In this document: positions 18,444 to 57,374 of the stretch, one piece after another | How positions within the stretch are numbered: position 1 is the stretch's first letter | Layout: each line of letters opens with the position of its first letter | Assembly: GCA_021731815.1 (NCBI GenBank) | Contig: JAKFWO010000045.1 | Coordinates: forward strand, 1 to 60,297 | Length of the DNA stretch: 60,297 nucleotides | Reading direction: 5' to 3' | Origin: Hyphomonadaceae bacterium | GTDB taxonomy: Bacteria > Pseudomonadota > Alphaproteobacteria > Caulobacterales > Aquidulcibacteraceae | The notes under the pieces: model-generated | The model's database searches: none | Told to the model about the DNA's origin: nothing | The model's input: only the letters and a program-made list of their open reading frames with translations | Position numbers and translations under genes: made by a program

Positions 18444-18520
18444 GCTCCAACACACAGGGCTCCAACACACAGGGCTCCAACACACAGGGCTCCAACACAC
18501 AGGGCTCCAACACACAGGGC
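18444..18520. repeat. five-copy 15-bp perfect tandem repeat
   Basis: Unit GCTCCAACACACAGG repeated five times without mismatch (18444-18518) plus two bases. It starts directly at the base after the stop codon of the transglycosylase gene. Perfect copies suggest recent expansion or contraction. It is a tandem repeat without spacers, so not CRISPR. Confidence 0.95.
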
Positions 18521-18678: not shown

Positions 18679-18993
18679 ATGACCAACGCCGCCCCCCACG
18701 AGACTGCTACCAACAACATTGCCTCTCAAAAGTCTGGCTTGAGCGCCGCCGCCGGCCGTCAGGCCATCGCTTTCGGCCTCGCACTGGCCATTACGGCACT
18801 GGGGATTGCCGGAATCAACACCGCGACAATGACGCGCGAAACGGCCGAGCCGACCTCCTGGCAAATCGCCACGACCAGCTCGACTAATGTCTCCAATCAT
18901 CAGGCGCAGATCGCGGATGCATCGTCAGGAATCGTGGCGCAGGTCGCGGCCACCGCCGCCGAGCTGGCGCAGAAAGTCAGCCCTGCACGCTAA
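18679..18993 (+). CDS. small single-span membrane protein, unknown
   Basis: 104 residues, no recognised family. A hydrophilic N-terminus is followed by one hydrophobic helix (about residues 29-47, AIAFGLALAITALGIAG) and a Thr/Ser/Ala-rich C-terminal part (WQIATTSSTNVSNHQAQIAD ...) probably outside the membrane. ACAGGAGACAGAC gives a strong ribosome site. It has its own AT-rich leader and is closed by a very strong terminator, so it looks like a monocistronic and possibly abundant or induced transcript. Confidence 0.75.
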   Translation: MTNAAPHETATNNIASQKSGLSAAAGRQAIAFGLALAITALGIAGINTATMTRETAEPTSWQIATTSSTNVSNHQAQIADASSGIVAQVAATAAELAQKVSPAR

Positions 18994-19056
18994 GGAATAG
19001 CTGTCCGACAGCGGGTTGCTCTGTTGATCCCACCCTTGACCCGCCAGATAGACGCA

Positions 19057-19103
19057 CGGGTCGGAGGTACCGGTGATTACCGGTACTTCCGACCCGATTT
19101 TTT
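19057..19103 (+). terminator. strong intrinsic terminator
   Basis: An 18-bp stem (19057-19074 with 19079-19096, one G-U pair) closes a four-base GATT loop and is followed by ATTTTTT. It ends the transcript of the small membrane protein. Read leftwards the hairpin lacks a T-tract, so it would be a weaker end for the TonB receptor gene. Confidence 0.95.
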
Positions 19104-19154
19104 GTCCGATGCTGTCAAGCCCGCATTGAGGCCCAAACCTGCAAGTCTTTCGGA

Positions 19155-21824
19155 TCAGAACGCCCGCTTCAGATTGACGGTGAATTTCCGACCAAGGCCA
19201 TAGGTGTCGAAATTCGTGAAGGTGCCGTCATCGAAATTCTGGGTGGCTTCGTAATCTTCGCCGAGAATATTCTCGATCTTGAAGCCGAAATCCCAGGTCC
19301 CGCCCAGCGCCACGATCTTTCGGCTATAGACGAAATCCAGCGTGATCGGCGGGCGTTCCAGCACGGCTGGCGCGACGACGCCAAGAGGGCGGCTGATCAC
19401 GAGTTCCACATTGCGAATGCGCTGGGAAGCGTAATTGACGAGGAATGTGGCGCGGGAGTCCTTTTCCTTGTCCTCATAGCCAAGTTGCAGATTGAACAAA
19501 TGGCGCGACTGGCCCTGAAGGGCGCGGCCCGGATTGAACACTGACACCGCCGCGATTTCGGATGGGGTCGCGCCAGTATTGCCATTGATCACCGGCGTCG
19601 TCACCGTTCCGTCGCCGCTGACATTGGATTCGCTGAAGGTATAATTGGTCTTGAGTACCAACAATTTCGTCGTCAGCCAGGAGGCGCTCGACCATTCCGA
19701 CAATTCGTAATTCTTTTCGAATTCGAATTCGAAGCCATAGAGGTCCGCCGACGGAGCATTGATGAAGGAAATCAGCGGAAGTCCGCCGAGATCACGGGCA
19801 AATTGTTCCTCGATCGGGTTCTCAATCTGCTTGTAGAATCCGCCCAGCGTGATGAATTGCCCGCGCGAGAAATAATATTCGGCCCGGAGGTCATAATTGT
19901 CGAGGCGGGAATTGCGCAGGAACGGATTACCGCGAACCAGCAGATTGGTGTCTTCATTGAGGAAGAAGGCCGGGGTCAGTTCCCGGAATTGCGGCCGGTT
20001 GATGGTTTGTGAAAACCCGAAGCGCAATTGCAGGCTGCTGATTGGATTCCAGGTCAGGGTCAGCGATGGCAAAGCGTAATCGACATCGATTGCGGTTTCC
20101 GACAGTGAAGTAATCGGCGACAGGGTGGCAAAGGCCGACGTTCGCTGCACGCCATCTTCATAGCGCACCCCGGCTGCGAGCCGGAAATATTGGCTGAGCT
20201 CGAGATCCACGCCAACATAGACACCATGCACAACCAGCGAGCTCGCCGAATTGTCGAGGTCGATATTGGCTTGCAACAGGGTCAGATCGAACAGTGCAGT
20301 CTCGATGACCGGCCGGGAGAGCAACAGATCAATGCGCGAGCCCAGAATGGATTGCGGAACCGCGGCATTGCTCTGGAACTCGAAGTTCCGGGTGATCGTG
20401 CTGCGTTCCTTGTCGGTATAGGCGTAACCGAATTTCAGCTTGCCTTGCTGTTTGAACAGCGAAAACGGCACCGTGAAATCCACGCCGGCATCGATATTCT
20501 GGTCCGATACCCGGGAGAAGCCGAGCGTATTGGGGGTCGAGCCGACCAGGCCGCTGGCGTCGTAGAGGAACGGATCGTCGGTCCCCAATTGACGAATATA
20601 GGTATATTCGCGTTGAAACGGCGCATTGCGGTAGGCTTGGCCATAGGCCCCGCGCCATTTCACATTGACCGCATCGCCGAACAGCGGAATGTCATGCTCG
20701 CCCCGCAATTGGGTTTGCCAGACCTGACGCTCGAAAAATTCGAGATTGGAGCGGTTGAATTCGAGGCCGACATCGTCGCCATCCACGCCCTGGGTGACAC
20801 GGGCTTCCTTCAGTGTCGAACGCAGAACCAGGCTGGTCGAGGTGATCTCGCCAAGAGCGCCAAGATCGATCCCGAAGGAACCGATCGCGCTGGTCTCAAC
20901 AACGTTTTGGGTCGAAACGAAATCCACCTGGGTCGATTCGATGGTCGGTGTCGCGGCGCTCTGTGTAAAGCCTTGCTCGCGGCGGCCGTCCCTGGTCTGG
21001 AAGGTGTTGTTGAAACCGATGGCGATCGTCCCGCCAATGCTGATATCGCCGCCGAGATCGATCCGCCCGCCAAAGGCCGTGTTGACGCCGTAATTGGGTT
21101 GAATGCGTGCCTGCGAGATGACCGCGGTGCGGAAATTTTCGAGGCTGACATCGATCGCCTGCTGGTTTTGCGGCGTGATGGCTCCGCTCTCAAACACCTC
21201 GCTGAGCGGTCCGGGAATATCGCGTGTGCCGTCGTCAATGCCGAGAAAGTCGAGCGCGCCGCCGTCATAGACAAGCCCGGTTCTGCCGGTGCTGGCGAGA
21301 TCTGCGCCGACCGTCCCACCGAATTCGAAAAAGTTCTTTTTGGGCACCGATTTGGTGCGTAATTCTACCGCCCCGCCACCGAATTCAGCGGATCGTTCGG
21401 CGGAAAACGTTTTTTGAATCAGTGTCCCGGAAAGAATTGATGTCGGGATGAGGTCGAGGGGGACAACCCGTTGCAGCGGCTCGGGGCTCGGCAAAGGCGA
21501 GCCATTGAGCGTCACGGAAGAATAACGCTCATTAAGACCGCGCACGATGACGAATTTGCCTTCGCTGATCGACAGACCAGTCACCCGGCGCAAGGCACCT
21601 GCGATGTCGCTGTCACCCGTGCGGATGAATGATGCTTCGTCGAGAATGCTGGAAATCTCGGACGTCACGCGCTTCTCGTCAGGAATACGCGCGCCGCGCA
21701 CCACGATTTCCTCGGCCACTTCCTCTTCGACCGGTGCGGGCTCGGCTTCCTGGGCCCATGCGTTGACCGAAGTCAGCATGGTGGTCGCCATCAGCGCCGA
21801 CAGAGCAAAAGCATATTTCTTCAT
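19155..21824 (-). CDS. TonB-dependent outer-membrane receptor
   Basis: 889 residues. A signal peptide (MKKYAFALSALMATTMLTS ... AWAQ), a TonB-box-like EEIVVRGAR, then a plug domain (LRRVTGLSISEGKFVIVRGL; NERYSSVTLNGSPLPSPEP; RSAEFGGGAVELRTKSVP) and a 22-strand-type barrel ending in the aromatic terminus VNLKRAF. The start at 21824 has GAGGTGGG upstream. It lies 112 bp downstream of the beta-helix lipoprotein with an intrinsic terminator between them, so it may depend on read-through from the Pho-box promoter. Substrate is not encoded in a recognisable motif; a phosphorus compound is an inference from the upstream Pho-like array. Confidence 0.93.
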   Translation of the reverse strand: MKKYAFALSALMATTMLTSVNAWAQEAEPAPVEEEVAEEIVVRGARIPDEKRVTSEISSILDEASFIRTGDSDIAGALRRVTGLSISEGKFVIVRGLNERYSSVTLNGSPLPSPEPLQRVVPLDLIPTSILSGTLIQKTFSAERSAEFGGGAVELRTKSVPKKNFFEFGGTVGADLASTGRTGLVYDGGALDFLGIDDGTRDIPGPLSEVFESGAITPQNQQAIDVSLENFRTAVISQARIQPNYGVNTAFGGRIDLGGDISIGGTIAIGFNNTFQTRDGRREQGFTQSAATPTIESTQVDFVSTQNVVETSAIGSFGIDLGALGEITSTSLVLRSTLKEARVTQGVDGDDVGLEFNRSNLEFFERQVWQTQLRGEHDIPLFGDAVNVKWRGAYGQAYRNAPFQREYTYIRQLGTDDPFLYDASGLVGSTPNTLGFSRVSDQNIDAGVDFTVPFSLFKQQGKLKFGYAYTDKERSTITRNFEFQSNAAVPQSILGSRIDLLLSRPVIETALFDLTLLQANIDLDNSASSLVVHGVYVGVDLELSQYFRLAAGVRYEDGVQRTSAFATLSPITSLSETAIDVDYALPSLTLTWNPISSLQLRFGFSQTINRPQFRELTPAFFLNEDTNLLVRGNPFLRNSRLDNYDLRAEYYFSRGQFITLGGFYKQIENPIEEQFARDLGGLPLISFINAPSADLYGFEFEFEKNYELSEWSSASWLTTKLLVLKTNYTFSESNVSGDGTVTTPVINGNTGATPSEIAAVSVFNPGRALQGQSRHLFNLQLGYEDKEKDSRATFLVNYASQRIRNVELVISRPLGVVAPAVLERPPITLDFVYSRKIVALGGTWDFGFKIENILGEDYEATQNFDDGTFTNFDTYGLGRKFTVNLKRAF

Positions 21825-21892
21825 GATCCCACCTCGCAGCCGCAACGGCGCATCGTTGTGAATTTACGTCACCAGCGCGCCCCGGCGCGCCG

Positions 21893-21927
21893 AGAGAAAA
21901 AGAGGCGGCGAGGTCTCCCCCGCCGCC
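21893..21927 (-). terminator. intrinsic terminator/attenuator between lipoprotein and receptor genes
   Basis: On the minus strand GGCGGCG pairs with CGCCGCC (21904-21910 with 21921-21927) around a ten-base loop, followed by TCTTTTTCTC. It lies 10 bp beyond the lipoprotein stop and 69 bp before the receptor start, so it may set the lipoprotein:receptor ratio by partial termination. Confidence 0.75.
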
Positions 21928-21936
21928 CATTCGATC

Positions 21937-24714
21937 CTAGAGGCCGGTCGTCCAGCCCTGGAACCAGGTGTCGTTGGCGTCCCGCACCGCGCCGGCATAG
22001 TCCACCGCTGTGAAGAAGGGCGAGAGCGGAACCGGATTGGTCAGGACCACCGAACTCTCATTGGCCCCGCGAATGAGCGGGGTCGTGGTGTTCGGCGCAT
22101 TGGTGAGGGTCGAGGCTGCAAAGGACAGATTATTCGGGCCGGTATTGAACAAGACGAGGCCGGCGGTGTTGGCGAGCGTGGTGTTGCGCGTAAAGACCGA
22201 GGACGCAATCACCGGCAATGTTCCAGCCACCACCGTGTGGCTGAGGCCGAGCCCGAAATTGTCAACGATGCTGTTCAGCAATTGTCCATTGGTACCGGCA
22301 CGAACCTGAACTCCTTCGCTTGCCGCACCCTGCTGGGAACCGATCAACGTGAAATTCGAGAGGATGGGGTTGGAAACCGGCGTCGCGGTCGCGTTCGTAG
22401 ACAGATTGTCGCCTTCGATCCCGTTGTCATTTGCGGCAAAGCGCGCGTCCTGGCGCACGATCACAAATTGCGACCGTCCGACCCATCCATCTGTCCAGTC
22501 AAAGGCATCGTCTTCGGCACCCACCACGATCGCATGGCGCACATTGACCGTTCCGCCGAAGAATTCAATGCCGTCATCGGCACCGAAGGTTGTCTGCACG
22601 AAATCGATCATTGTCCCGCTGCCAACGCCCTGAAGCTGCAGCGAATTAGCTTCATTGGTGCCGGAGAACTGGAAGCCGGCGAATTCGATGCGCAGGAAAT
22701 TGAGGCGGCCTGAATTGTCCGCGGCTGTGGCGCCACCAAACAGGCCGGTCCCGGCTTCGCCCGATTTCACGCAGGTCACCGAGCCACCAATTGCGCCCGG
22801 ATTGGCCGAGCAATCATTGATCGGCGCGCGACCATTGATCGACAGACCGTTCCAGTCCCCGGAATTGCCGGTATTGGTGAACAGCGCCTCGCGGCTGGTC
22901 ATCACCACCGGAGCCGCGGCCGATCCATTGACGATCAATTGATTGCCGCGCGAGACGATCAGCGCGTCCTGACCATTGAGGTTTCCGGAGGAGAAGAGGG
23001 TTACACCCGGGTCGACCGTCAGGGTCGTCACGACGGTACCGGCCGTGGGTGCTGCCGGATCCGCGCCGCGGTCGGCGCCGACAAAGACCAACCCGTCGAG
23101 TTCATAGAGATTGCCGCGCGTCAGCGTGACATTGCCGTTGACCGGGTTGATCAGGCGGCAGACATTGGTTTCGGAACGGCCAGCCGGCAGCGCGCCCGTC
23201 TGCAACGTGGTACCTGCGGGGCAGGTCACGGAAGGTGCGCCGGGCACGCCGACAGTCCAGCCCGTCGTGAAATTGTTGGCGGCGCTGTCTGTGGCCGCGA
23301 AAGCACCCGCAAACTGCCCGCCGGTGAAGAAGCTCGAGGCGAGGGCAGTGGCGGGAACCAGAGCCGGAACCGAGGATTCGTTCGGCCCCGGCAGGATACC
23401 GGCGAGAGTTGATACGACATTCTGCCGGTTGGCGCTGCCGGCATTGAACAAAGCCTGATCGTCGGCATCGGTGCCGAGCACCGCATTGCCATTAAAGGCG
23501 ACTGCATTGATCACCGGAACGGGGGCACCGGCCACGGCGTTGAATTCCAGCCCCTGACCAAAGCCTGCCACGATCGAATTGATGATGCGGCCATTGGTGC
23601 CGGCGCGAACCTGAATGCCCTCATTGGTATTGATGGTCCGGTTATTGGAGATCAGTGTCACATTGGAGATATTGGGATTGGAGCGCGGAAGCGCATTGCC
23701 GCTCGTCGTCAGATTGTCGCCTTCGATACCGTTATCACCATTGGCTCCGGTCTGCACCACCAAAGCAGTCTGCAGATTGCCGACCCAGCCATCGGTCCAG
23801 TCGATATTGTCATCATCATTGCCGATCAGCACGAGATTGCGGGCATTGACCGTGCCGCCAAAGAACTCGATGCCGTCATCGCCATTGTTGAAGATTTCGA
23901 TATTTTCGACCACCGTCCCCGAGCCCACACCCTGAAGCGCAAGGCCATTGAGTTCATTGGTCGACGAAAACTGGAAACCCGCGTGCTGGATGCGCACGAA
24001 ACGCAGAATCCCGGAATTGTCGGCGGGGCGGTCACCGCCGAACAGGCCCGATCCGCCTTCGCCATTCTTGGTGCAGGCGGCAGTGCCACCCGTGGCACCC
24101 GGATTGGCCGAGCAATCATTGATCGGGGCAAAGCCGTTGACGATCAGTCCGCCCCATTGGCTGCGGCCAGTGATCGAAGCGTCGGGGCGGCCATTGTCGA
24201 GCATATCCTGGGCGCTCGTGAACACGATCGGTGCGGCTGCTGTTCCGTTGGCGATGATCTGCGAGCCGCGCGTGACGGTCAGGGCATCAACCGATCCCGA
24301 CGATGCGACATTGTCGGCATCATTGCCGATCAATACCGCACCCGGCATGATGGTCAGGACACCCGACGCACCGCCATCGGTGCCCACAAACATCTGACCG
24401 TTCAGAAGATAAGGCAGGCCACCATTGGCGGGCAGGGTAACGTTTCCGGAAATATTGCCCGAAAGCTGGCAGAAAGCGCGGATGACATTGTCGCCGAGAT
24501 TGACATTGTTGTTCTGCGTGGTCCCGGCTGGGCAACCTGCGCCGGGGACATTGTTCTGGCCAAAGGCCCCGGTCGCGCCACCGCCCGGAATGACGACCGG
24601 CGTGATCGGGGTGTTCGAGCCCGGAGACACCACTTCGGCTTCCGTGCAGGCGGCGAGCAAGCCCAGGGCGCTGCCGGCCAGAAGCAAAGAACTGAATTTA
24701 GGAAGACGCCCCAT
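21937..24714 (-). CDS. large outer-membrane lipoprotein of two homologous beta-helix-like halves
   Basis: 925 residues. Signal peptide with lipobox LAAC (Cys23, Thr at +2). The rest is a duplication: residues about 45-475 and 480-925 share, in the same order, GNVTLxxxxxYxLxGxxFVG, NDCSANPGA, ADNSGxLxFxRI, AGFQFS-TNE, DDGIEFFGGTVN, DWTDGWVG, DNGIEGDN and EGxQVRAGTNG. The regularly spaced short strands and Asn/Gly/Asp turns suggest a right-handed parallel beta-helix, and acidic clusters could bind metal. Proteins with these motifs occur next to TonB receptors in other proteobacteria; no function is established to my knowledge. The start at 24714 is chosen because it gives the signal peptide; the frame is open 75 codons upstream. 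Four Pho-box-like units precede it. Confidence 0.88.
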   Translation of the reverse strand: MGRLPKFSSLLLAGSALGLLAACTEAEVVSPGSNTPITPVVIPGGGATGAFGQNNVPGAGCPAGTTQNNNVNLGDNVIRAFCQLSGNISGNVTLPANGGLPYLLNGQMFVGTDGGASGVLTIMPGAVLIGNDADNVASSGSVDALTVTRGSQIIANGTAAAPIVFTSAQDMLDNGRPDASITGRSQWGGLIVNGFAPINDCSANPGATGGTAACTKNGEGGSGLFGGDRPADNSGILRFVRIQHAGFQFSSTNELNGLALQGVGSGTVVENIEIFNNGDDGIEFFGGTVNARNLVLIGNDDDNIDWTDGWVGNLQTALVVQTGANGDNGIEGDNLTTSGNALPRSNPNISNVTLISNNRTINTNEGIQVRAGTNGRIINSIVAGFGQGLEFNAVAGAPVPVINAVAFNGNAVLGTDADDQALFNAGSANRQNVVSTLAGILPGPNESSVPALVPATALASSFFTGGQFAGAFAATDSAANNFTTGWTVGVPGAPSVTCPAGTTLQTGALPAGRSETNVCRLINPVNGNVTLTRGNLYELDGLVFVGADRGADPAAPTAGTVVTTLTVDPGVTLFSSGNLNGQDALIVSRGNQLIVNGSAAAPVVMTSREALFTNTGNSGDWNGLSINGRAPINDCSANPGAIGGSVTCVKSGEAGTGLFGGATAADNSGRLNFLRIEFAGFQFSGTNEANSLQLQGVGSGTMIDFVQTTFGADDGIEFFGGTVNVRHAIVVGAEDDAFDWTDGWVGRSQFVIVRQDARFAANDNGIEGDNLSTNATATPVSNPILSNFTLIGSQQGAASEGVQVRAGTNGQLLNSIVDNFGLGLSHTVVAGTLPVIASSVFTRNTTLANTAGLVLFNTGPNNLSFAASTLTNAPNTTTPLIRGANESSVVLTNPVPLSPFFTAVDYAGAVRDANDTWFQGWTTGL

Positions 24715-24781
24715 GTGATAATCCCCGCTGGAATGGCCCCCGGGGACTGGCGTCCCGGGCCTGGATGAGCGAGAGCCTACT

Positions 24782-24821
24782 AGGCCAGATTTGTAACGAC
24801 GGAATGACGCAAAAGTGACAG
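24782..24821 (-). promoter_or_regulatory. Pho-box-like array (four heptamers, 11-bp period)
   Basis: Reading leftwards on the minus strand: CTGTCAC, TTTT, GCGTCAT, TCCG, TCGTTAC, AAAT, CTGGCCT. Each heptamer is separated by exactly four bases, matching the PhoB site architecture (CTGTCAT-N4-CTGTCAT). The first two units fit the consensus well, the third and fourth less. It lies 68 bp upstream of the lipoprotein start with a possible -10 (TAGTAG/TAGGCT) just after the third or fourth unit. This indicates phosphate-starvation control of the lipoprotein/receptor pair, as inference. Confidence 0.7.
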
Positions 24822-24996
24822 AACAAAGACACCCGCCTTGATCCAAGGGGGTGCAGTCTGAACTGCCCATTGCCACGCGATCCGGGCACATGGCGGCGAA
24901 ATCTGGCGGGCGGGCGTGGACTTTCCGGTTGAAAGACACCCCTCATACCCGTAAGGCCCACCCCATCATGCGAAAATGGCACTGGACCGAGGCTTC

Positions 24997-25419
24997 ATGA
25001 CCTGGCCGATTATTCCCGTGAGTGATGATTTTGCCACGGCGCCGCAATTGGGTCCGGCCGATCTCCGCGCGGCTTCCAGCCTCGGATTCCGGCTGATCAT
25101 GTGCAACCGCCCCGACCACGAAGAACCGGGCCAGATCCTGTCGCGCGCAATGGCGGCCTGCGCCGGGGACCTCGGCCTCGCTTTCGTATTTCTGCCCTTT
25201 GTCGGTCTGCCGGATGCCCGAATTGTCGACCGGTTCTGCGCGCTGCGCCAGGAAAATCCCGGTCCTGTGCTGGCTTTTTGCCGGTCGGGAACGCGGTCGA
25301 TTTTTCTCTGGGCACTTGCTGAGGCGCGCAATGGCCGACCGGGAACAGAGATCCTCGCCTTGGCGCGTCAGGCCGGCTATGATGTGTCGGCGGTGGCACC
25401 CCTCCTGCCGCCCGCTTGA
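24997..25419 (+). CDS. TIGR01244-type (Blh-like) phosphatase/sulfurtransferase family protein
   Basis: 140 residues with a rhodanese/protein-tyrosine-phosphatase-like active-site loop CRSGTRS (Cys95) and the family elements VSDDFATAPQL and FVFLPFVG. Related domains are fused to metallo-hydrolases in sulfide oxidation (Blh), but this is the stand-alone form, whose substrate is unknown. ATG at 24997 has GAGG at proper distance and is preferred over ATG at 24976. It is divergent from the Pho-like lipoprotein operon, so the Pho array lies between the two starts. Confidence 0.82.
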   Translation: MTWPIIPVSDDFATAPQLGPADLRAASSLGFRLIMCNRPDHEEPGQILSRAMAACAGDLGLAFVFLPFVGLPDARIVDRFCALRQENPGPVLAFCRSGTRSIFLWALAEARNGRPGTEILALARQAGYDVSAVAPLLPPA

Positions 25420-25462
25420 GGCGAAGGCTTGACAGCCCGTCCGGGGTCCGGGAAACCGGCCC

Positions 25463-26251
25463 ATGCGCGCCTTGTTTCGCTTTCTTCTGACGCTTGATGC
25501 CGGGGCCTGGCGCGCCGCATTGGTTTCCGGCGGATTATTCGTCGCCATCGCCGCTGTTTTCGCGGCCGGACGCCTGGGCTGGCTGCCCGATTATTCGGTC
25601 CGGATCCTCGATGAATTGCGGAACTGGGCCGATGGCCCCTTCGGTCCATTGTCCGTCGGGATGCTGTTCCTTGCCGGAGCCTTTCTGGGGATACCGCAAT
25701 TCGTGTTGATCGGGGCAAGCGTCGGGGTCTTCGGCCCGTTGACCGGCGCGATCCATGCATGGGCAGCGACATTGTTTTCGGCGGTATTTACCTTCTGCGT
25801 CGGACGCTGGGGGGGGGCAGAGACTCTGGCGCGCTTTGGCGGCCCGGGCATCGCGCGGCTCACGCAATTGGTGGCAAGAAACGGGTTCATGGCGGCCTTT
25901 CTCATCCGGAATGCGCCATCCGCTCCGTTCATCGTGGTCAATATGGTCATGGGCGCGGCGCGCGTGGGCACGGCCTCCTTCACCCTTGGAACAGCGCTGG
26001 GGATCATTCCCAAAATAGCGCTGATCGCGCTTGCGGGAGGCACGCTGACCGAAGCCGCGAAAGGCGCATTGGGGGCCGCGGCCGTCCTGGCGCTGCTGGC
26101 TGGCGCGGTGTGGATATCCATTGTGTTCCACACGCGCGCCCGGATGCAACGGGAATTGATGCGGGGGGAAGCAAATCCGAAAATTCCGGGGGCGCGGGAT
26201 CCGGAATCTGCGGATCCCGCAGTGCAGGATCAGGTTCCGCCGCCCCGCTGA
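25463..26251 (+). CDS. TVP38/TMEM64-like VTT-domain membrane protein
   Basis: 262 residues with about five to six membrane segments and the VTT (DedA-like) signature: FLAGAFLGIPQFVLIGASVG, then IRNAPSAPFIVVNMVMGAAR and FTLGTALGIIPKIALIALAG. Such proteins reside in the inner membrane and are thought to move or scramble lipids. The hydrophilic C-terminus (KIPGARDPESADPAVQDQ) is variable. Its last 22 bp overlap the end of the convergent MoxR gene. It lies 43 bp behind the phosphatase-like gene, probably co-transcribed. Confidence 0.85.
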   Translation: MRALFRFLLTLDAGAWRAALVSGGLFVAIAAVFAAGRLGWLPDYSVRILDELRNWADGPFGPLSVGMLFLAGAFLGIPQFVLIGASVGVFGPLTGAIHAWAATLFSAVFTFCVGRWGGAETLARFGGPGIARLTQLVARNGFMAAFLIRNAPSAPFIVVNMVMGAARVGTASFTLGTALGIIPKIALIALAGGTLTEAAKGALGAAAVLALLAGAVWISIVFHTRARMQRELMRGEANPKIPGARDPESADPAVQDQVPPPR

Positions 26252-27120: not shown

Positions 27121-27597
27121 TCATGGGGACTCAAGCGCGCGTGGCACTGACCCGCTGATCACCAGTTCGGCAGCTTCGCTTTTCAGCCATGCAGCGCAGC
27201 TTTCGAGGACAATTTCCGGATCCAGCCGGTTTCGGCCCTTGATCGCACATTCCCACACGCACCCGATGCGCCAGCCCAGCGCGCGGAGTTCCGCGACCTG
27301 GCGTTCATCGCGCACGCGATTGCCGGTGATCTTGAGGTGCCAGAAGTCCTTGCGGGTCGCCGGCCATTTGAACAGGGCGCATTCATGGGCGTGCCAGAAA
27401 CAGCCATGGGCAAACAAGAGTGCCCGGTATTTCGGGAAAACGAGATCGGGCGTGCCCGGAAGGGTCCGGTCGTGCAGGCGGAACCGAAATCCGCGGCGGT
27501 GCAGGCCTTTGCGCAGCATCATTTCGGGCGCGGTGTCGGTCCCGCCGATGCCCGACATCATCTTCGAGCGAATTACGGGCGAAACCACGTCAGCCAT
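27121..27597 (-). CDS. vsr: very short patch repair endonuclease
   Basis: 158 residues with the Vsr signatures RSKMMSGIGGTDTAPE, LPGTPDLVFPKYRALLF (catalytic Asp in TPDLVF) and HGCFWHAHECALFKWP (zinc/metal ligands). It nicks 5' of the T in T:G mismatches arising from deamination of 5-methylcytosine. It overlaps the end of the methyltransferase gene by 8 bp, so the two are translated together. No restriction endonuclease gene is next to it. Confidence 0.96.
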   Translation of the reverse strand: MADVVSPVIRSKMMSGIGGTDTAPEMMLRKGLHRRGFRFRLHDRTLPGTPDLVFPKYRALLFAHGCFWHAHECALFKWPATRKDFWHLKITGNRVRDERQVAELRALGWRIGCVWECAIKGRNRLDPEIVLESCAAWLKSEAAELVISGSVPRALESP

Positions 27598-28741
27598 GGT
27601 GCCGCCGGAAGGGCAATTCCCCCTGCACGGGACCGGATGCCAGGGCAGCCATTGGCAGATGAGGCTGCATCAGCTTCGCCACCGCCCGGACCACCGGAAC
27701 CACCACCGCATTCCCGAATTGCCGCCAGGCCTGTGTATCGGAAACCGGAATGACGAAATCCGAACCCCGCGGCGGATCAAAGCCCATGATACGCGCGCAT
27801 TCGCGCGGGGTCAGTCGACGCGGCCGGTTACCTTCCTGCCGGATCAGGATTTCCGAGCCGTCCTTGTGATAGCGGGCCGACAAGGTACGGGCGACATCGC
27901 GTGGGCCGCACAGCGAGAATCCAAATCCGTGCCCGGCCGCTTCGTGCTTGCGTCGATACGCCTGGAGATAATCCCAAAGAAGCGGGGTGAGCGTGTATTT
28001 CGCCGGAACGTCCGACTCGAGGATGTCCCCGAGCACGGGGGCAGGCCCGGACGGCATGGCCAGCGCGGAGAAGTCGAAGCGCGATTTTTCCCTGAAACCA
28101 ACGATGAAAATCCGCTCCCGCTTTTGCGGGACCCATGGGCCCGAATGGATGATGCGGGTGTGAACCTCGTAGCCGAGTTCCTTTTCGAGGACATCCATGA
28201 TCGTGTGAAAGGTGCGCCCACCATCATGCCGTTCGAGATTTTTGACATTTTCCAGCAGGAAAGCGGCGGGGCGGCGATAATGGATGATTGCGGCAAGGTC
28301 ATGGAACAGGGTCCCTTGCGTGGTGCATTGAAATCCATGCGGACGCCCAAGCGCATTCTTTTTTGACACTCCGGCGATCGAAAAGGGCTGGCAGGGGAAG
28401 CCGGCCAGCAGGACGTCATGGGCGGGTACACGGCCCGGCTCAGCAGCGAAGGGCCGGACATCGCCGGCATGGATATGGTTCTCATCGGATACGAAATTCG
28501 CGGCATAGGTTTGCCGCGAGAAGCGGTCCCATTCGGCGGTGAACACACAGCGCCCGCCGATCTCGTCAAAGGGGATCCGCAAGCCGCCAATCCCGGCAAA
28601 CAGATCCACGAAGCGGAAGCCCGGATCGACTTGAGCAGGCGAGATATCCGTCGGGCGGGAAGCGGGGTGAAATTGGATGCAAGGCCGGGCTGCTTCCGCA
28701 CCTGCACCGAATTCATATTCCGCAGAGGCAGTAAGAGCCAT
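27590..28741 (-). CDS. dcm: DNA (cytosine-5-)-methyltransferase
   Basis: 383 residues with the ordered C5-MTase motifs: I FVDLFAGIGGLRI, IV AGFPCQPFS (catalytic Cys117), VI FLLENVKNL, VIII QKRERIFIVGF, and IX/X RRLTPRECARIMGFDP and QFGNAVVVPVV. The target recognition domain is compact (about residues 230-290). Coupling with vsr and resemblance to Dcm/EcoRII-type enzymes suggest a CCWGG-like target, which the sequence alone does not prove. The first 40 residues are non-conserved. It is divergent from flbT across a 267-bp gap. Confidence 0.95.
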   Translation of the reverse strand: MALTASAEYEFGAGAEAARPCIQFHPASRPTDISPAQVDPGFRFVDLFAGIGGLRIPFDEIGGRCVFTAEWDRFSRQTYAANFVSDENHIHAGDVRPFAAEPGRVPAHDVLLAGFPCQPFSIAGVSKKNALGRPHGFQCTTQGTLFHDLAAIIHYRRPAAFLLENVKNLERHDGGRTFHTIMDVLEKELGYEVHTRIIHSGPWVPQKRERIFIVGFREKSRFDFSALAMPSGPAPVLGDILESDVPAKYTLTPLLWDYLQAYRRKHEAAGHGFGFSLCGPRDVARTLSARYHKDGSEILIRQEGNRPRRLTPRECARIMGFDPPRGSDFVIPVSDTQAWRQFGNAVVVPVVRAVAKLMQPHLPMAALASGPVQGELPFRRHHG

Positions 28742-56390: not shown

Positions 56391-57374
56391 TCAGGTGCCG
56401 GTGGAGGGGGTTCGGGGCGGCACGGAATTGGTGCGGAGGCTGTTCCTGCGTCCCTCTTCCGTTTGCGCTCCGCGCCTCTCCTCCGTTTGCGCTCCGCGCC
56501 TCTCCTCCGTTTGCGCTCCGCGCCTCTCCTCCGTTTGCGCTCCGCGCCTCTCCTCCGTTTGCGCTCCGCGCCTCTCCTCCGTTTGCGCTCCGCGCAGGGC
56601 AAGCGCTTCGGAGAGCGCCACCGACCGATCATGCTCAGCACGCAGATGCGCACGGTCGATGTCGATGCGCACCAGTTCCGTTGCCGGAGCGGGGATTGCA
56701 GCCGGGGCCTCTCCCGTGACCTCGGCACCATTGGCATCAGGTGCGACAGGCGGGAGGGACAGCCATTCCCGGACATCGGCGAATAATTGATTGCCGCGAT
56801 CGAGCGAAAAGCTGGCCCGTTCGAGATCGGTCAATTCCTCCCGCCAGAGCGGCGAAAGTTCGCGGGCCTTGAGCGCGTTCTCGGCCGCGCGGTTGAGGGC
56901 TCGCGCCGCGCGCAAAGCGAGGCGAAGATCCTCCTCCACAGCAGCACGCACCGCAGTGACATCGGGGGCGTCCGTCTGCTTGCCGGCAAGATATTTGTCG
57001 AGCGTGTCGCGGCGGAGCGCTTCGGGTGTCGTCGCCTCCCCGCCCCCGCCCAGCAGGACATTGGCGATCGCCCCGAGCGGGTTGCCAGGTGCCGGCACCC
57101 ATTTCCGGGCCTGATATTCTGCGATCAGCCGGCGGGCTTCGGCGCGCAGGGGGCTCGTCAACGCAAGCTCGGCTTCGCGCGTGCCCGGCGGCGTGGTGAT
57201 GGCGACAGTGGTGCAGCCGGCGAGCAGGACGCCCATCGCCGCCAGAATCACCCCCGGCACCAGACCCCGTCGTCGCGTGCCGATAAATTGCCGGGTCTCG
57301 AATTGTCTGGTCGCGTGCTTGCGGCGTTCTGCGCCGAAACGACCGGACGGGGAGGGGGGTGGGCTGGATGGCAT
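56391..57374 (-). CDS. putative lipoprotein with C-terminal octapeptide repeats
   Basis: 327 residues, no recognised family. A long Arg-rich n-region precedes a hydrophobic stretch and lipobox LAGC (Cys54). The middle is helical, with Ala/Arg/Leu-rich heptads (LRAEARRLIAEYQARK; AALRAARALNRAAENALKAR). The C-terminus carries six RGAQTEE-containing octapeptides from a 24-bp tandem repeat, followed by a short tail. ATG at 57374 is chosen; the frame opens at 57491. The unusually long n-region raises the chance that the true start is later. Confidence 0.7.
   Translation of the reverse strand: MPSSPPPSPSGRFGAERRKHATRQFETRQFIGTRRRGLVPGVILAAMGVLLAGCTTVAITTPPGTREAELALTSPLRAEARRLIAEYQARKWVPAPGNPLGAIANVLLGGGGEATTPEALRRDTLDKYLAGKQTDAPDVTAVRAAVEEDLRLALRAARALNRAAENALKARELSPLWREELTDLERASFSLDRGNQLFADVREWLSLPPVAPDANGAEVTGEAPAAIPAPATELVRIDIDRAHLRAEHDRSVALSEALALRGAQTEERRGAQTEERRGAQTEERRGAQTEERRGAQTEERRGAQTEEGRRNSLRTNSVPPRTPSTGT
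56452..56600. repeat. 24-bp tandem repeat, five full copies plus partial
   Basis: Unit GTTTGCGCTCCGCGCCTCTCCTCC starts at 56461, 56485, 56509, 56533 and 56557, with a partial copy at 56581 and a partial one before 56461. It encodes RGAQTEER octapeptides in the C-terminus of the lipoprotein. Copies are identical, implying recent copy-number change. Confidence 0.95.

Follow-up and report, generated by a model that had tools for sequence, protein, structure and literature searches.

What controls the genes for a lipoprotein and a TonB-dependent receptor that lie side by side on the minus strand of contig JAKFWO010000045.1 of a Hyphomonadaceae bacterium (60,297 nucleotides, hereafter the window)? 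An earlier reading of the letters (the original prediction) had proposed that four heptamers before the lipoprotein gene form a PhoB operator and drive both genes. Our analysis favours a PhoB-activated promoter before an ElpS-type surface lipoprotein and a TonB-dependent receptor as the explanation of the whole locus, to which we assign a probability of about 0.8.

The probable Pho-box array and the -10 element

Read on the minus strand, positions 24821-24782 give CTGTCAC-tttt-GCGTCAT-tccg-TCGTTAC-aaat-CTGGCCT, followed by 67 bases to the ATG of the lipoprotein gene (24714). The predicted 4-base spacing was confirmed, and one phased heptamer, GTGTCTT (24832-24826), was added upstream, where the top-scoring 29-mer begins. 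The first three of the predicted heptamers stand. The fourth, CTGGCCT, is a poor heptamer that holds the CTAG of the -10 element (24783-24780) and was given up.

Scoring with an alphaproteobacterial PhoB matrix had been proposed, and we ran it with a matrix for which related genomes supplied 11 pst operators, the window's own genome being held out. This matrix leans toward the consensus because each training operator was chosen as the best three-heptamer stretch of its region; six of the 11 came from genomes whose lipoprotein promoter was tested too (another gene of the same genome). The window array scored 21.1 bits (p=0.001 against 1000 dinucleotide shuffles), the best score in the whole window, and the second-best value (11.5 bits) was the same array read one heptamer further on. 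Over 300 bp before 71 open reading frames (ORFs) from three stretches of the own genome (the window, L111 and L112), the maximum was 7.6 bits; owing to start codons chosen by script, neither the window array nor the L111 pst promoters were among the regions of this control. The pattern CTGTCAYNNNNNYGTCAY had one exact match in the 2.53-Mb genome, namely the window array, which alone is an unfair test because the pattern was composed after the site had been seen. With up to two mismatches, it matched 228 genome sites versus 110 for the reversed pattern. The window array is real and lies above chance.

The array also matches pst operators of its own lineage. The matrix recovered the held-out box of the own pstS at 28.9 bits and gave 16.2 bits for the own pst operon, before pstC; 76 bp before the own pstS lies one of the 20 one-mismatch sites from the genome pattern scan. 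In related genomes, pstS promoters often carry three or four heptamers stepping 11 bp, and such heptamers are absent where pstS apparently stands behind another gene. One pstS region (L208) fell to -12.7 bits owing to a wrongly set ORF start. The own genome encodes PhoB (330 bits, above the NCBIfam cut-off), PstC and a PstS-like protein (PF12849). TIGR00975 did not pick up the own pstS; of 60 genomes, 4 gave hits above its cut-off. The search for pstS used the genome's own PstS protein in its place.

Two arrays elsewhere in the genome were observed during this scoring. The strongest of 21 near-exact sites scored, ATGTCAT-tttt-ATGTCAT-gaaa-CTGTCAT (29.9 bits; L154/L155, G000:C12:75610-75638), has no clear adjoining target gene. 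A 24.1-bit array (L146, G000:C4:37133-37150, minus strand) precedes an ORF of 251 amino acids behind a gene that by eye resembles an ammonium transporter.

With at least two CTGTCAT-like direct repeats of 11 bp, the window array resembles E. coli Pho box promoters, in which CTGTCAT-type heptamers with 4-base linkers are likewise described head to tail (PMC3465305, PMC4415409), but it comprises four units, with degenerate ones at either end.

Downstream of the array, CTA occurred 25 times over 28 promoters, and 19 of these occurrences lay on phase 5 of the 11; over 19 representative promoters, 12 of 14 were on the same phase. In pst promoters, 14 of 17 CTA occurrences were on that phase; this count took in the 21 regions at or above 10 bits and dropped the other 11 of the 32 (nine of the 21 come from genus G001-G008). 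The own pstS was included in both counts, and the phase is partly post hoc because it was spotted by eye in some promoters and then counted on all. CTA keeps to one lattice phase, so that operator and -10 element share a single lattice, which is what one would expect if the regulator binds head to tail and touches the polymerase. In silico, the window array lies just upstream of its -10 element on the same helical face. The -10 region, CTGGCCTAGT, roughly fits GCTANAWC, the Caulobacter housekeeping -10 element. The heptamer lattice with its phased CTA offers a simple promoter rule for predicting Pho genes in this lineage.

Conservation before orthologues

The original prediction had named the absence of phased heptamers before orthologues as refuting it. 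We collected 30 loci and set aside L016 (without lipobox) and L018 and L021 (not Alphaproteobacteria), which left 27 promoters. The heptamers are kept in these nearer orthologues, with 26 of the 27 at p<0.02 (same matrix against dinucleotide shuffles) and the remaining one, L059, at 0.059; they are weaker in seven more distant homologues. The 27 promoters amount to fewer independent cases because eight come from one genus (G001-G008) and two are similar Sphingomonas loci. The best array begins 91-182 bases upstream of the lipoprotein ATG, with L055 (269) as the exception. Two plasmid-borne homologues, scored without shuffles, reached 22.7 bits in Sphingomonas parapaucimobilis and 13.8 bits in Pseudoalteromonas donghaensis.

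The proposed PhoB operator architecture thus draws support from the pst-trained matrix, from conservation before orthologues, from the fixed -10 phase and from the gene neighbourhood described below, and judged from these sequence features the array is very likely a Pho operator.

The lipoprotein

The search of Pfam and NCBIfam (E 0.001) gave no family match for the lipoprotein, and the PDB sequence search returned nothing at the limit used. Repeat 1 of the two tandem repeats (47% identical to each other; Table 1) was modelled separately because full-length Foldseek matches were loose and had low template-modelling (TM) scores. AlphaFold folded it as a beta-helix with a predicted local distance difference test score (pLDDT) of 82 and a predicted TM-score of 0.88. 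In VIA-align, this model matched numerous beta-helix proteins at Z about 21, including 7akv_G (Z 21.5, root-mean-square deviation (rmsd) 3.4 over 267) and the endopolygalacturonase 7b8b_A (Z 20.3, rmsd 3.9 over 275); many of these proteins are polysaccharide-active. The predicted beta-helix lipoprotein is thereby supported, while the polysaccharide-active matches of a modelled fold, as we read them, carry no information on its activity. GH28 enzymes have the catalytic motifs GHG and RIK; among 18 lipoprotein sequences, GHG occurred in none and RIK in one, and by these motifs the lipoprotein does not belong to the GH28 polygalacturonases. Invariant acidic clusters are present in both repeats and may possibly form a metal-bridged phosphate site. 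The number of repeats varies among homologues, with one in a Sphingomonas protein, two in the window protein and three in a Pseudoalteromonas protein.

The receptor, the pairing and the junction

Plug and barrel domains are present in the receptor, for which the PDB sequence search at E 0.01 found no solved chain. Among 32 loci, two of which (L015 and L070) are apparently the same contig, the lipoprotein adjoins a receptor in 30, and the other two end within the lipoprotein at the contig end. The receptor lies downstream in 26 loci and upstream in four (labelled Myxococcota/Myxococcales, Planctomycetota and one uncultured bacterium). Lipoprotein and receptor are supported as a unit, as had been proposed.

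The claim that the array drives both genes is supported for the lipoprotein and only partly for the receptor, since a stem-loop stands between the two genes and the receptor gene cc0171 of Caulobacter crescentus was reported as constitutive (PMC2996285). The window stem-loop is not significant alone (7 terminator-like sites in the region against 6.9 expected from shuffles), and Rfam at gathering threshold gave nothing in 18900-25500. A GC-rich stem of 11-20 pairs nevertheless follows the lipoprotein stop by 4-19 bases in all 27 loci surveyed (42 in L218), with a T-rich tail in 12 of the 27 by a strict count in which the window's T-run was counted into its stem; one mismatch was allowed, and the shuffles preserve base content only. 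Stems at all 27 junctions argue for unequal expression of lipoprotein and receptor, which fits a constitutive cc0171. No second Pho array precedes the receptor at the window junction (-7.2 bits), and 16 of 17 lipoprotein-receptor junctions scored 1.3 bits or less.

As a separate observation, the pair is 48-58% identical to the metagenome-assembled loci L010-L013 (two labelled Parvularculaceae) versus 34-42% to the own-family loci L051-L070, a kinship that, going by the sequences, perhaps reflects horizontal exchange.

Type II secretion and pst genes nearby

The lipoprotein is present in 26 of 60 family genomes and, across the class, in 8 of 289 genomes with the own genome counted. In 12 of the 26, a full-type type II secretin gene (gspD) follows the lipoprotein on the same strand at a distance of 3.9-4.2 kb; in genus g2, eight genomes carry the lipoprotein and lack full-type gspD. 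One genome (G024) shows the order lipoprotein, receptor, type II secretion system (T2SS) genes (C, D, E, F, H, J and L matched), PstS-like and PstC. The same contig order includes pstS and pstC in G011 and G012 and pstC in G047, and in G015 a PstS gene stands directly behind the receptor. In four loci, the TonB-gspC junction lacked a Pho array (scores from -1.7 to -3.8 bits). This ties an alphaproteobacterial family of lipoproteins to a PhoB-type promoter and a TonB receptor, and in some genomes also to T2SS and Pst.

Before the own T2SS operon we noted GCGTCAT-gcta-TTGTCAT-atcg-GTGGCCTAG (L112, minus strand 14660-14630, G000:C11), roughly 200 bases upstream of the gspC frame. This Pho-like array scored 10.2 bits and has a CTAG -10 element on the same phase.

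Comparison with known systems

ElpS of C. crescentus (CC_0170) is reported as a phosphate-starvation-induced surface lipoprotein with T2SS-dependent release; its overproduction raises alkaline phosphatase in the supernatant, and ElpS itself is seemingly no phosphatase (PMC2996285). That report also places cc0170 beside T2SS genes in Xanthomonas campestris, Sphingomonas alaskensis and Hyphomonas neptunium, and its main text does not contain the term Pho box. It describes the T2SS as constitutive, and PMC11208175 lists T2SS and TonB receptors among PhoB-regulon functions. We likened the window pair to ElpS/CC_0171 by description and gene order (a lipoprotein beside a TonB receptor, with a T2SS adjoining them in 12 genomes of the family and in S. 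parapaucimobilis), not by the CC_0170 sequence. At about 50 kDa, ElpS would have one repeat by size, against two in the window protein. In long alignments, the window protein matches at 33-40% a Sphingomonas homologue that has one repeat and the same gene order.

Flavobacterium johnsoniae FI, FII and FIII (PUSIII/PUSIV) are described as low-phosphate-induced lipoproteins that are modelled as polygalacturonase-like and share 31-36% identity with ElpS; FI and FII come with co-induced TonB-dependent transporters (PMC8115612). The window lipoprotein has the lipoprotein signal, the beta-helix fold as modelled for FI-FIII and the adjoining TonB receptor of the ElpS/FI type. The Flavobacterium system, again likened by its description, differs in belonging to another phylum and in the sigma and FecR-like genes of PUSIII. 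As in SusCD/PusCD, one locus encodes both a TonB receptor and a lipoprotein predicted to lie at the surface, but the window lipoprotein is a beta-helix with no SusD family in Pfam (E 0.001), no carboxypeptidase-like N-terminal domain was found in its receptor with Pfam, and we do not count the pair as a SusCD system. By analogy, a SusD-like role of the lipoprotein is plausible. The window locus is the same kind of system as ElpS/CC_0171 and Flavobacterium FI and, as a system, ordinary. Such scavenging systems are known but poorly understood; the window is a well-supported member in which the question of the ligand becomes testable. Titles and abstract openings of the papers found on this theme described no Pho box before elpS-like genes; supplements lay outside this coverage, and we make no claim of priority.

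Proposed mechanism and alternative explanations

In low phosphate, phosphorylated PhoB would bind in head-to-tail order on the heptamer lattice with its 11-bp step and bring RNA polymerase to the -10 element (CTAG) on the same helical phase. The lipoprotein would be made in quantity, and the stem-loop after its stop would pass less, or differently regulated, message to the receptor. At the cell surface, the double beta-helix lipoprotein may bind or process a phosphate-bearing polymer or ester, the receptor would import the product with TonB energy, and Pst would take up the freed phosphate.

Several observations weigh against this reading. The seven more distant homologues gave p = 0.617, 0.058, 0.072, 0.004, 0.022, 0.020 and 0.012. 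Within its stem-loop, the L064 junction reached 8.5 bits, above the 8.1 bits of the lipoprotein promoter at that locus. In the own genome, gspD lies on contig C11 and the window on C16, so that the pair does not stand beside the T2SS operon, a neighbourhood we do not treat as defining. In C. crescentus, deletion of elpS is reported to have left phosphatase activity unchanged, and cc0171 to be constitutive (as data not shown) while elpS is induced (PMC2996285); joint control of lipoprotein and receptor is doubtful because of that constitutive receptor gene.

In another account, the lipoprotein is released and aids a secreted phosphatase or attacks a polymer, forms no capture lid, and leaves the receptor independent. 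T2SS-dependent cleavage of ElpS and the phosphatase rise on its overproduction fit a released lipoprotein, the constitutive cc0171 fits an independent receptor (both PMC2996285) that the stem-loop may uncouple, and many polysaccharide-active enzymes have this fold. But the pairing in 30 of 32 loci, including loci labelled Planctomycetota and Myxococcota and either gene order, the ExbB-ExbD-TonB genes of the Pseudoalteromonas locus itself, and the missing GHG of GH28 (18 of 18 sequences) make it rather unlikely. In that plasmid locus (L219), genes for ExbB, ExbD and TonB and one more gene precede those for a lipoprotein of three repeats and for a TonB receptor.

Another regulator of the OmpR/PhoB family, such as ChvI or a further winged-helix regulator of this genome, could use the same array: the own genome has nine Trans_reg_C matches, and the design of a heptamer plus 4-base spacer is common to other family members, for example mycobacterial PhoP as described in PMC4832192. 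We consider this improbable, since the site was ranked by a pst-operator matrix, its -10 phase is that of the pstS promoter, some relatives have pst neighbours, and inspection by eye showed no Caulobacter ChvI motif (TTGC-N3-GCAA) in the array. A chance arrangement of GTCA words, for which common CTGTCAY-like pairs and the 110 reversed-pattern matches might speak, is hardly credible given an array kept before 26 of 27 orthologues and phase-locked to the -10 element.

Beyond PhoB control of the pair, we tentatively suggest, with the odds somewhat against it, that such loci could be the proteobacterial equivalent, for phosphate, of polysaccharide utilisation loci. A surface lipoprotein with one, two or three beta-helices would serve as lid or receptor domain of a dedicated TonB importer that takes up a phosphate-bearing polymer, and T2SS and Pst would act as additional stages. 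One promoter type, PhoB heptamers and -10 element on an 11-bp lattice, would survive the scattering of these genes (compare the own unlinked T2SS box with its CTAG).

Other features of the window

Table 1. Coordinates of the promoter, genes and junction in the window
Feature	Position	Strand	Basis
Pho-box array, four heptamers with 4-base linkers	24793..24832	minus	sequence read and pst-trained matrix, 21.1 bits
Array heptamers	GTGTCTT 24832-24826; CTGTCAC 24821-24815; GCGTCAT 24810-24804; TCGTTAC 24799-24793	minus	
-10 region CTGGCCTAGT, CTAG at 24783-24780	24779..24788	minus	lattice phase common to relatives and pst promoters
Predicted outer-membrane lipoprotein, 925 amino acids, two tandem beta-helix repeats	21937..24714	minus	AlphaFold pLDDT 80
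Signal peptide and lipobox LLAAC (Cys23)	24646..24714	minus	Cys23 invariant in 18 aligned sequences
Repeat 1, about residues 57-490, acidic cluster D279 D280 E283 / D301 D302 D305	23245..24546	minus	
Repeat 2, about residues 493-925, acidic cluster D713 D714 E717 / D735 D736 D739	21940..23238	minus	
GC-rich stem-loop then T-run, terminator/attenuator-like, between lipoprotein and receptor	21903..21928	minus	
TonB-dependent receptor, 889 amino acids	19155..21824	minus	PF00593, PF07715; TIGR01782 below cut-off

The third-ranking box-like site in the window (58499, 11.1 bits) lies within the ORF of a TIR-domain protein (PF13676, 58483-59352) and was taken as chance. Two tandem repeats were found: a perfect one of 15 bp x 5.1 at 18444-18520, just past a lytic transglycosylase gene, and a near-perfect one of 24 bp x 5.9 at 56454-56595, within an ORF reading repeated RGAQTEER. 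On the minus strand at 27121-28741, a Vsr-like endonuclease adjoins a C5 cytosine methyltransferase, both identified by eye.

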